Source: a virus. Taken from it: a stretch of 32,501 bases of DNA. Made by a program: the position numbers and the translations under genes. How positions within the stretch are numbered: position 1 is the stretch's first letter; every line of letters begins with the position of its first letter. Of this stretch, positions 4,766-7,143 are shown in pieces. The stretch lies in IMG/VR virus record IMGVR_UViG_3300044707_000046, positions 1-32,501 of that record; one strand, written 5' to 3'. Below the pieces are notes generated by a model. It was not told the origin of the DNA. It saw nothing but the letters and a program-made list of their open reading frames with translations, and did no database searches.

Positions 4766-5126
4766 GTTTGCTCCTTGGAATGCGTAGCATAGATCGTTCA
4801 CTGCTCGATAAGCGATGATATTTTTCTATTGATCTGTGCTTGTCTATAGCTCTATATCTGTTTAGACATAGTTCCCCCAGGGTGGAGCGCAACATTCTTT
4901 GCTCTACCTCTCCCATTCTCAGCATCTAGTGCTAGAACCAGAGTACCCGGAGGCTGCTATTGTTTCGATGCCTGGGTGGTCTACCACCGCTGTCCCAAGC
5001 GTCTACACCAGTCCCTAGCAGACAGGCTGGTCGGCAACAATTCGGGTGAGGATTGGCCGGTGTTTTCTTCCGCGCAGCCCATGCAGGCTCTTGATCTCGC
5101 TCGGAGTGCGGTTGGCCGTAGAAATG
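4766..5126. other. Non-coding stretch with three short palindromes; possible origin or operator region
   Basis: No convincing gene lies in these 361 bases. They contain three inverted repeats, each with a 2-base centre: TATAG-CT-CTATA (4845-4856), TCTAG-TG-CTAGA (4925-4936) and GGTGGT-CT-ACCACC (4975-4988). The part nearest the replication genes (about 4810-4870) is AT-rich. The stretch separates the terminator-like hairpin from the replication genes, so it should also hold a promoter for them, but no good -35/-10 pair was found. An origin or operator role is inferred from position only. Confidence 0.35.
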
Positions 5127-5199
5127 AAAAAACCCTTGCTACTGCACCCTGGTAGGAACCCAGACCGGAGAGACTGGGCAGGATGCATGAGCAAGGGTT
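5127..5199 (-). terminator. Long three-part hairpin with T-run: terminator or structured RNA
   Basis: On the minus strand the outer 10-bp stem AACCCTTGCT (5199-5190) pairs with AGCAAGGGTT (5140-5131). Inside it, across a 3x3 internal loop, an 8-bp stem pairs GCATCCTG (5186-5179) with CAGGGTGC (5151-5144), with one G-U pair. Next comes a 5-bp hairpin CCCAG (5178-5174)/CTGGG (5163-5159), with a 7-base bulge on its 3' side. A run of six T ends the structure. It starts 37 bases after the Cys-rich peptide gene. The T-run supports termination of the minus transcript; the elaborate interior is more than a simple terminator needs. Confidence 0.75.
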
Positions 5200-5236
5200 C
5201 TTCTGTCGGTTTCCACGCCAACAGAGCAATCTTACA

Positions 5237-5383
5237 TCAGAAGCAGGTTGTGTTGCAAATCCCCCCGTAGCAGCAGGTGGTACACATCACCACTCTGCCA
5301 TTGACAAAGTAGGTGGTTGTCATGCAGTTGGCATGAACCAATGTGGAGACAGTCAACAGCAATCCAGCTATCAGCTTCTTCAT
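5237..5383 (-). CDS. Tiny secreted cysteine-rich protein, 48 aa
   Basis: The ATG at 5383 is preceded by AGGAG at a spacing of 7. The first 18 residues (MKKLIAGLLLTVSTLVHA) form a textbook signal peptide: two Lys, a Leu-rich core and a cleavage site after VHA. The mature 30 residues hold six Cys: an early NC, then CTTCC and GICNTTC, a spacing that could form disulphides in the periplasm or outside the cell. It lies 12 bases after the HTH gene and just before the terminator-like hairpin. The role is unknown; envelope modification or superinfection exclusion is a guess. Confidence 0.78.
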   Translation of the reverse strand: MKKLIAGLLLTVSTLVHANCMTTTYFVNGRVVMCTTCCYGGICNTTCF

Positions 5384-5395
5384 CTATCGCTCCTG

Positions 5396-5719
5396 TTATC
5401 GACACATTGCAAAAAACGGGTCAAACGCTTGCCTTGCCTTCTCCTTCTCCCTCCACCGACGCTTGACCAGTGTGTTTGGCTCCCTGGGTGGTCTAGGCAA
5501 GTCTCTGCCCTGTCCAAACCGGTACATAGGCAGCTTTATCCTGCCGTTTAGGACAACTTCCCAATCAGCGATGTAGAGCATCTTTCTCTGGTGCATACGC
5601 CTGAGAATCGACCGACAGAACTCAACAGACAGACCTGTCTGCCTTGCAAGCTCCTTGGCTGTCATAGGCTCCCTCTGCACCAACACAATCAGGTCAAGCA
5701 ATGAGTCCGGCAGACTCAC
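5396..5719 (-). CDS. Helix-turn-helix protein, 107 aa
   Basis: A winged-helix-like HTH is visible at residues 19-44: MTAKELARQTGLSVEFCRS then ILRRMHQRKML, followed by strands and a basic C-terminus (VKRRWREKEKARQAF). This is the form of a small phage DNA-binding regulator. The start chosen is GTG 5719, which makes a GTGA overlap with the DUF1364 stop, like other junctions here. ATG 5770 and ATG 5782 are in frame but would overlap the nuclease gene by 55-67 bases. Lying in the early operon, it may control replication or late genes; the target is not known. Confidence 0.68.
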   Translation of the reverse strand: MSLPDSLLDLIVLVQREPMTAKELARQTGLSVEFCRSILRRMHQRKMLYIADWEVVLNGRIKLPMYRFGQGRDLPRPPREPNTLVKRRWREKEKARQAFDPFFAMCR

Positions 5720-6000
5720 TTTGTGCCTACCAAGTTTTGCTCGAACAACACCAGTATCGTTTTTCTCCATGCTGCTTCCCATAGTTCCTTCCGCTCTCCG
5801 TAGTTGAGTTTCGATCCCTGATCAATGTTGTGGTGACAAGACACACACAGAGCCGCGACATAGCAGTCATGCGCTTTCATTGCCATGCCTTTGCCGTACT
5901 CGCCCCAATTCGCATGAGCAGCTTGAGTCTCGTTCTCCTTGCCGCACAACTGACAAGGCAGACTGGCGACTGCTCTCAACAACGGTTTACTTCTGTACAC
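5716..6000 (-). CDS. DUF1364 (YbcO-like) HNH-type nuclease
   Basis: This 94-residue protein matches the DUF1364 family, for which E. coli prophage YbcO is the model. It begins MYRSKPLLRAV, has a CQLC knuckle (residues 17-20), AAHANWGEYGKGMAMKAHD and then CVSCHHNID, and ends with AWRKTILVLFE. The Cys pairs bind zinc, and the His residues fit a beta-beta-alpha metal nuclease. Family members are found among the nin-region recombination genes of lambdoid phages and are thought to cut branched or single-stranded DNA. Its place two genes downstream of NinB agrees with that. Confidence 0.85.
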   Translation of the reverse strand: MYRSKPLLRAVASLPCQLCGKENETQAAHANWGEYGKGMAMKAHDCYVAALCVSCHHNIDQGSKLNYGERKELWEAAWRKTILVLFEQNLVGTK

Positions 6001-6262
6001 GATGCCACCTCATGATTTCAGCTTGCAACGCTTCTCGACCACCCATTCCGCGAGCCTTCTCCACTAGCTCCAGGTAGGCTCTCCTGCGTTCTTTTTTCAT
6101 CCGCAACACAAACTGAGCCTCGCAAAACAACACATATGCCCTGGAGTGCAGACCGACTATCGTTCCGTCTGGTAAATACTTGGCAACTGCATGATCGTGT
6201 CTCTCTCCACACGCATCGCAGACAAGGATTCCGTCCAAGTCAAGCCTCTCTCCGTTGCCCAT
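5987..6262 (-). CDS. Small phage protein with CxxC, 91 aa, unknown
   Basis: The frame from ATG 6262 begins MGNGERLDLDGILVCDACGERH. A CDAC knuckle (residues 15-18) is followed by a His pair and a later Cys near residue 47, which could make a small metal site. The C-terminal half is a basic amphipathic helix (RMKKERRRAYLELVEKARG). It overlaps the end of ninB by 106 bases in another frame, which is unusually long for this operon. A shorter form from GTG 6133 would remove most of the overlap. I prefer the long form because the CDAC region reads like real protein, but the start is uncertain. Confidence 0.55.
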   Translation of the reverse strand: MGNGERLDLDGILVCDACGERHDHAVAKYLPDGTIVGLHSRAYVLFCEAQFVLRMKKERRRAYLELVEKARGMGGREALQAEIMRWHRVQK

Positions 6263-6591
6263 GCAATCACCTGCTCCACATACTCCGAGAATGCCGCGGT
6301 CGTCATCCCTGTCGTTGTCGGCTCCAGTTCGACCATCTGACCACCTGGAAGCTCTTTCATCCTCCCAGGCAGGAACAGAGTCTTAAAGTAGATGTGCCAA
6401 GTATCAGGATGATGCCCTTGTCCTCCAGGCATGACCTGCTCACTGATCGCTTGCAAGACTGCCCAATAGAGCGAGTTCTGAGCGGTTGAACGGTTGGGTT
6501 TGGAAATCGACACCACCCAACCCGGTTTCGCGGCTTGGACAGCCTCTAAAGCCCTCCTACGGGCATCCTCGTTTGTCAGCGGGATCAGCAT
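6157..6591 (-). CDS. ninB: NinB-like recombination protein
   Basis: This 144-residue protein fits the NinB (lambda Orf) family, whose member in lambda is 146 residues. It carries SKPNRSTAQNSLYWAVLQAI (from about residue 30), where the R-S-x-x-Q-N-x-x-Y/L-W core is diagnostic, and an end segment FSEYVEQVIAWATERGLTW like lambda's C-terminal part. Lambda Orf is a DNA-binding mediator that helps RecA- or Beta-type recombination in place of RecFOR. The start ATG 6591 has GGAGG upstream; the open frame continues to 6657 without one. It should cooperate with the Erf and YqaJ proteins of the plus operon. Confidence 0.85.
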   Translation of the reverse strand: MLIPLTNEDARRRALEAVQAAKPGWVVSISKPNRSTAQNSLYWAVLQAISEQVMPGGQGHHPDTWHIYFKTLFLPGRMKELPGGQMVELEPTTTGMTTAAFSEYVEQVIAWATERGLTWTESLSAMRVERDTIMQLPSIYQTER

Positions 6592-6896
6592 AGTTCCTCC
6601 ACCTTGCACTGCCAGCGGTTGCCTTCCTTGTACCAGCCATGAATCTGGACTCTCCACCCTGCGCGAACCATCTCAGGGTATGCATCAGAGTCCTGGATCT
6701 TGTGTCTGCGGCTGCTCATGTTGGACTTGCTGGTGGTCTGCACTGCCAGCGTCTCACCGTTGCCGATGGCTAGGATGTCGATACATCCAAACAGATCGTG
6801 TTTGCGCTTGGTGAAGCCGTTGTAATGCTCGACGATGGCCACGGTGTAACCGTCACCTTCAAGCTGCCACTTGCTTCGTGCTGTCAGTGTTGTCAT
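6585..6896 (-). CDS. Putative PD-(D/E)XK-like nuclease, 103 aa
   Basis: The protein has an N-terminal WQLEGDGYTVAIVEHYN segment, then RKHDLFGCIDILAI, a short turn and ETLAVQTTS. This places D-x(n)-D before a strand ending in V-Q, which resembles the restriction-like nuclease core with Gln in place of the second acidic residue. It ends AGWRVQIHGWYKEGNRWQC, also typical of small phage Holliday-junction or VRR-like nucleases. The ATG at 6896 was chosen over 6938 to shorten the overlap with the repressor gene to 38 bases. It probably acts in recombination with NinB; the fold assignment is inferred. Confidence 0.62.
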   Translation of the reverse strand: MTTLTARSKWQLEGDGYTVAIVEHYNGFTKRKHDLFGCIDILAIGNGETLAVQTTSKSNMSSRRHKIQDSDAYPEMVRAGWRVQIHGWYKEGNRWQCKVEELC

Positions 6897-7095
6897 TGAA
6901 AAACCCCGGAACAAGCCACTCTTTGCGAACCTTGCCACCAGTCAACTCCTCGATCTGGAGCGCCCTGGGTAGCGGGACTTTGCCAGCCTTCCTCCAGCTA
7001 TAGAGGTTCTGTCGGTGGAGTTTGAGAGCAAGACAGAGCTTGCCTTTGCCGCCCAAGATGGCAGCAGCGTAGTCGAGAGCATTGGGAACGTTCAT
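6859..7095 (-). CDS. YdaS/Cro-like repressor, first gene of the left operon
   Basis: This 78-residue helix-turn-helix protein is of the YdaS/Cro type: ALDYAAAILGGKGKLCLALK then HRQNLYSWRKAGKVPLPRAL and IEELTGGKVRKEWLVP. The pattern 'G...la..lg..r..v..W...g.vP..ra..ie..tgG.v' is standard for these regulators. AGGAGGT lies six bases before ATG 7095, so this start is preferred to 7116. The gene sits immediately inside the divergent promoter pair at 7115-7165, as a Cro- or CI-like switch gene would. It likely binds there and represses one or both operons; operators were not identified with confidence. Confidence 0.82.
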   Translation of the reverse strand: MNVPNALDYAAAILGGKGKLCLALKLHRQNLYSWRKAGKVPLPRALQIEELTGGKVRKEWLVPGFFNDNTDSTKQVAA

Positions 7096-7114
7096 TGTGT
7101 TACCTCCTGTTCGC

Positions 7115-7143
7115 ATTACACCACACTAACAATCGCTTGACAA
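7115..7143 (-). promoter_or_regulatory. Sigma-70 promoter for the left operon
   Basis: Minus strand: -35 TTGTCA (7143-7138, 5 of 6 consensus), a 17-base spacer, and -10 TGTAAT (7120-7115, 5 of 6). The expected transcript start is near 7108, only about 13 bases before the repressor ATG at 7095, so the leader is little more than the AGGAGGT site. The -35 box shares five bases with the opposing promoter's -35. Confidence 0.78.

Follow-up and report, generated by a model that had tools for sequence, protein, structure and literature searches.

Does a 48-residue open reading frame in the DNA of an uncultivated virus encode a real, exported protein, and if so, what could a protein of this size do for a phage? 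The frame lies in a window of 32,501 bases (the whole stretch of DNA analyzed here, an IMG/VR virus record), from which end repeats are absent. A reading of the sequence alone had proposed a secreted, six-cysteine peptide preceded by a ribosome binding site at 5237-5383, and our analysis agrees in coordinates, strand, and length. The product is MKKLIAGLLLTVSTLVHA followed by NCMTTTYFVNGRVVMCTTCCYGGICNTTCF, with the predicted boundary between signal and mature chain falling between the two. The features discussed below, all on the minus strand, are as follows:

4868..5222, minus strand: structured RNA, about 355 nt long, in the gap from the peptide gene to the O-like replication gene, with a conserved core at 4991-5126
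5129..5200, minus strand: long hairpin ending in a U-run within the structured RNA (fold z-score -6.2)
5237..5383, minus strand: gene for the 48-aa, predicted secreted six-cysteine peptide, stop included (ORF, relatives, dN/dS 0.10)
5240..5329, minus strand: residues 19-48, the mature chain, predicted to form an antiparallel sheet of three strands (AlphaFold2 and register check)
5330..5383, minus strand: predicted signal peptide, residues 1-18, with a predicted signal peptidase I site between VHA and N (sequence and family)
5390..5394, minus strand: AGGAG ribosome-binding site, 6 nt ahead of the start codon (sequence)
5396..5782, minus strand: winged-helix-like gene, 128 aa, directly upstream of the peptide gene (weak Ren-like match)
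5716-6000, minus strand: HNH/DUF968 gene, early block
5987-6262, minus strand: DUF7696 gene, early block
6157-6657, minus strand: NinB gene, early block
6585-6938, minus strand: 117-aa ORF without a family match, early block
6859-7116, minus strand: Cro/YdaS-like gene, early block

The peptide gene starts 12 bp past the stop of the co-directional 128-aa gene at 5396-5782. On its 3' side, a gap of 435 bp is followed by O-like and P-like replication genes, and genes for Erf and a YqaJ-type exonuclease are divergent to the minus-strand early block. Judged by gene content (Cro-like, NinB, HNH, O-like, and P-like), the peptide gene appears to sit in an early operon, which fits the position originally proposed for it. 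The 128-aa gene itself gave weak matches to Ren-like exclusion proteins (phrog_142, E = 0.0097; phrog_16568, E = 0.012), and its winged-helix matches in Pfam were all under the curated cut-offs. As a weak guess, the host may be betaproteobacterial, because the closest cultured portal protein is that of a Methylophilales phage (52.6%).

Evidence for a protein-coding gene

Among 60 dinucleotide shuffles of the window, 2 ORFs in all combined a signal peptide, an AxA-type site, and at least 6 mature cysteines, against 1 in the real window. As a comparable ORF is thus expected in about 1 of 30 shuffled windows, these features by themselves are only modest evidence for a gene. The decisive evidence is homology. 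A search with the single peptide sequence recovered relatives at 26 loci, an alignment of 16 rows extended these to at least 521 IMG/VR contigs, and a more divergent alignment to at least 554. The homologue search and the dN/dS test that the sequence-only reading had proposed thus both came out in its favor: the cysteine spacing is conserved across the family, and dN/dS was approximately 0.10 (0.105) over 226 moderately diverged pairs drawn from 131 distinct genes, indicating purifying selection. By part, the ratio was 0.18 for the signal and 0.07 for the mature chain.

The starts of the family members also look like those of translated genes. An AGGAG-like ribosome-binding motif precedes 100 of 107 starts, and many show the ATGA overlap typical of translational coupling. 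At 91 of 104 loci, an upstream frame on the same strand, 50 codons or longer, has its stop close by, with the peptide start at -4 to +20 nt from it, compared with 285 of 2,080 random ATGs (14%) drawn from the same loci. Given the relatives, the dN/dS of 0.10, and the constant cysteine spacing, the ORF is almost certainly a real gene. That it is instead no gene at all, its conservation being due to the adjoining structured RNA or to chance, is extremely improbable; such a reading could point to the conserved RNA that starts only about 15 nt past the peptide stop, but it is already contradicted by the codon-level conservation over the 226 pairs, by the ribosome-binding-site-like motif in 100 of 107 members, and by peptides found with no such RNA nearby, as well as RNAs with no detected peptide.

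A gene of this size was expected to be easily missed, and this is what happened in GenBank. Two of 50,697 phage records contained a relative, both metagenomic genomes from one spring (MW202462.1:33654-33896, our locus L027, and MW202544.1:14777-15019, L028); in both, the annotation under the match is a hypothetical protein on the opposite strand, and the peptide gene is left unannotated.

Distribution, anatomy, and predicted fold of the peptide family

Beyond phages, a scan of prokaryotic genomes covering 84,980 species gave one weak match (L107), and plasmids gave none. Of 48 IMG/VR loci that span 10 kb or more and were selected solely for their Erf gene, 4 carried the peptide. This near-absence from prokaryotes and plasmids, together with the 4 of 48 Erf loci, suggests an accessory, viral family whose members seen so far are environmental. 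Its neighbors vary, and include genes for Erf, YqaJ-type exonuclease, SSB-like, DUF669-like, NinB, HNH, and DUF1376-like proteins, all of them early recombination or replication genes, although several of these names come from reading the sequences rather than from profile matches. At one locus (L166:3976-4337), two different family members occur in tandem, of which the second has an extended and unusual N-terminal region as well as an RWD tail.

The single genomic match was rejected as a sign of bacterial origin. It lies at a contig end (L107:5650-6225), where an AT-rich segment is joined to GC-rich Blastopirellula DNA, which is probably a chimeric assembly. The encoded peptide is of a secreted type, 39 aa long, and has only the four-cysteine C-terminal hairpin, the equivalents of C20 and C37 both being absent. 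A degenerate DNA scan of the viral contigs detected no such minimal four-cysteine form.

No family in PHROGs or Pfam covers the window peptide in a profile search. Over 46 members, the best PHROG match was phrog_27496, a group of 8 members with no assigned function (best E = 0.0015), and a sequence search of the PDB returned nothing better than E = 2.1. The family was not found in the literature searched, though it may be among the unnamed entries of the small-phage-gene catalogue of Fremin et al. 2022. We conclude that this is probably a new, uncharacterized family nearly confined to environmental phages, whose members are predicted to be exported and to carry three disulfides.

The anatomy of the family was studied in 107 distinct peptides. 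Each N-terminus has a lysine-containing start and a hydrophobic stretch, followed in 105 of 107 by an AxA-like site one residue ahead of the first cysteine, in line with the secretion signal proposed earlier; the residue at -3 from that cysteine is Tyr or Trp in 98. A strict lipobox was present in only 1 of 107, and the signal therefore fits signal peptidase I and not the lipoprotein route. From these sequence features, the peptide is very probably exported. The mature chain is mostly 30 or 31 residues long, Thr/Asn-rich (24% Thr and 20% Cys), and carries a net charge of 0 or +1 in 106 of 107 members. Its six cysteines follow the spacing C-x13/14-C-x2-CC-x4-C-x3-C in the 107 peptides, except that some members have a residue more in the first turn; this invariance is partly built in, since the scan patterns held cysteine stretches and extraction required the cysteine motif. 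Among tblastn-confirmed loci that escaped the extraction pattern, the sole cysteine loss was in L048, where Arg takes the place of C37, which speaks against the predicted three-disulfide sheet and against the role proposed below.

AlphaFold2 modeled the full-length peptide with a mean pLDDT of 71.3 (77-84 for the mature blocks), and the mature chain alone with a mean of 91.6, as a three-stranded antiparallel sheet. The predicted strands cover residues 20-27, 30-39, and 42-47 in full-length numbering, and the two-residue turns at 28-29 and 40-41 place C20 opposite C37, C34 opposite C47, and C38 opposite C43. When cysteines were placed at random, all six fell in register in 234 of 200,000 trials. 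On this modeled basis, the mature fold is likely a three-stranded sheet, and from its strand register we infer three cross-strand disulfides, C20-C37, C34-C47, and C38-C43. The earlier proposal of a disulfide-rich mature chain thus stands as a prediction in which the six cysteines are confirmed, while the pairs it had listed by motif (NC, CTTCC, and GICNTTC) are replaced by this cross-strand arrangement. The joint loss of the C20 and C37 equivalents in the L107 peptide agrees with a C20-C37 pair, without amounting to proof.

Solved structures and profile families provided no reliable fold or homology match to a protein of known function. The Foldseek and VIA structure matches (best Z 3.3, best Foldseek E 0.53) were generic three-stranded sheets and were not used, and a local match to Ly6/PLAUR (E 0.34) was dismissed as a chance match to a short CxxCC stretch. 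One family member was present in BFVD/UniProt (A0A6J5M8Q5, 49 aa; 51% identity over 49 columns, Foldseek E = 1.5e-4). It carries the automatic name “Lipoprotein [uncultured Caudovirales phage]” and no function; as 106 of 107 members have no lipobox, this name is probably wrong.

The downstream structured RNA

For the conserved RNA downstream of the peptide gene, an exact 22-nt flank pattern was found in 18 contigs. Their alignment showed a GUUGG/CCGAC hairpin, a hairpin of variable sequence, and conserved blocks that are enclosed by a long-range pairing. The loop of the GUUGG/CCGAC hairpin appears by eye to covary with a downstream segment, suggesting a pseudoknot. The variable hairpin (5129-5200) differs widely in sequence among the window, L001, and L002, while its stem and U-run are kept and its flanks are nearly identical.

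A covariance model of the 137-nt core gave 35, 18, and 5 matches at E<=0.1, down to approximately 20 bits, in three sets of fetched loci that include some redundant contigs. Across 33 sequences, the helices were 93% paired, with a covariation of 0.385 versus 0.123 in shuffles (0/500), in an alignment that was fitted to the model and so favors it; when the helices were slid, the score fell to 0.04-0.07. The RNA recurs in L001, L007, L009, L049, L090, L094, L101, L106, L171, L177, L190, L236, and others. Of 37 peptide-RNA pairs examined, 23 share one strand and have the core beginning 109-172 nt past the peptide stop; in the rest it lies elsewhere, and four loci (L190, L202, L234, and L236) have the RNA with no detected peptide. 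Rfam 15 held no match for it, two hits to microRNA families (E 0.1-0.27) being attributed to chance. We therefore regard the RNA as an element separate from the peptide, and as a candidate for a new phage RNA family in its own right.

Candidate roles and known systems

The explanation that we favor overall, with confidence a little short of even, is that the peptide is an accessory, exported, early periplasmic protein, most likely with a function in the envelope or in superinfection exclusion, as the sequence-only reading had suggested. The peptide would be translated within the early recombination/replication operon, exported by Sec, and cut by signal peptidase I. Oxidation in the periplasm would then yield a rigid, 30-residue, three-stranded sheet, in which three cross-strand disulfides replace a hydrophobic core. 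The mature peptide may bind an envelope target and so alter the surface of the infected cell or the entry pathway, resulting in superinfection exclusion or a related envelope function, similar to Llp and Cor but soluble and non-lipidated. Such a role suits a family that is accessory, seen almost exclusively in viruses, and located in early regions, and T5 Llp (PMC9586334) and T4 Spackle (PMC7650644) provide precedents for phage proteins at work in the periplasm. The periplasmic target and the exclusion or envelope role itself are inferred, and we put them forward more tentatively than the overall explanation: no homologue or reliable fold match has a known function, Llp and Cor are lipoproteins whereas the peptide is not, and many other uses are conceivable for an accessory protein that is exported.

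Among those other uses, inhibition of an enzyme deserves the most weight, though we consider it rather unlikely. Rigid disulfide mini-proteins are classic inhibitors, and the peptide could act in the periplasm on a muralytic or proteolytic enzyme of the host or phage, preventing early lysis or foiling the tail lysozyme of a second phage. T4 Spackle sets a precedent for such inhibition (PMC7650644). A match to the PHROG “spackle periplasmic” was seen in only 1 of 46 members, however, at E = 0.84, which indicates no sequence relation, and the window revealed no tail lysozyme as a target. An anti-defense gene acting on the envelope side, against a periplasmic or membrane-bound host defense or nuclease, would fit the sporadic presence in related early regions and the early location, both seen for anti-defense genes. 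Nothing specific speaks against it, but most known anti-defense proteins act in the cytoplasm, and we consider this reading improbable. Slightly more improbable still is a secreted effector, a signaling or antibacterial peptide released to act on neighboring cells. The small size and the cysteine spacing 34-38-43-47 would fit, but the net charge of 0 or +1 in 106 of 107 members and a composition rich in Thr and Asn rather than Arg do not, and Sec export in a Gram-negative host ends in the periplasm.

The gene occurs in at least 521 public viral contigs, yet has no PHROGs or Pfam family. The constant, predicted 30-residue triple-disulfide fold and the strong purifying selection together suggest that environmental bacteria have one conserved target for it in the periplasm. 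Should the peptide exclude other phages, it would be the smallest protein known to us to do so. More speculatively, and on balance doubtful, the peptide may found a new phage-exclusive class of non-lipidated, triple-disulfide periplasmic mini-proteins that remodel the envelopes of aquatic bacteria during infection, forming a cassette with the downstream RNA in the lineage of the window.

Three known systems invite comparison. Tachyplesin-type antimicrobial peptides are two-disulfide beta-hairpins with the spacing C-x3-C-x4-C-x3-C, strongly cationic and amphipathic. The C-terminal half of the peptide has the same spacing, constant in all 107 members, with cross-strand pairs predicted; unlike the tachyplesin type, the peptide has a predicted third strand and third disulfide, hardly any charge, a Thr/Asn-rich composition, and a phage origin. 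T4 Spackle (gp61.3) is a periplasmic phage protein with a cleaved signal peptide that inhibits the gp5 lysozyme (PMC7650644). In the peptide family, a signal is predicted from sequence in 105 of 107 members, and the product would likewise act in the periplasm; Spackle has 97 aa, two nearby cysteines with a dispensable bond, and a novel, unrelated fold (PMC7650644). T5 Llp acts at the periplasmic face of the outer-membrane receptor FhuA to cause exclusion, and has a Cys11-Cys58 bond (PMC9586334). Llp and Cor are lipidated, while a strict lipobox occurs in 1 of 107 peptides; Llp has one disulfide versus six cysteines in 30 residues, and we saw no relation in sequence or fold to either. What the peptide would share with Llp and Cor, given its predicted export, is that all are small, exported phage proteins.
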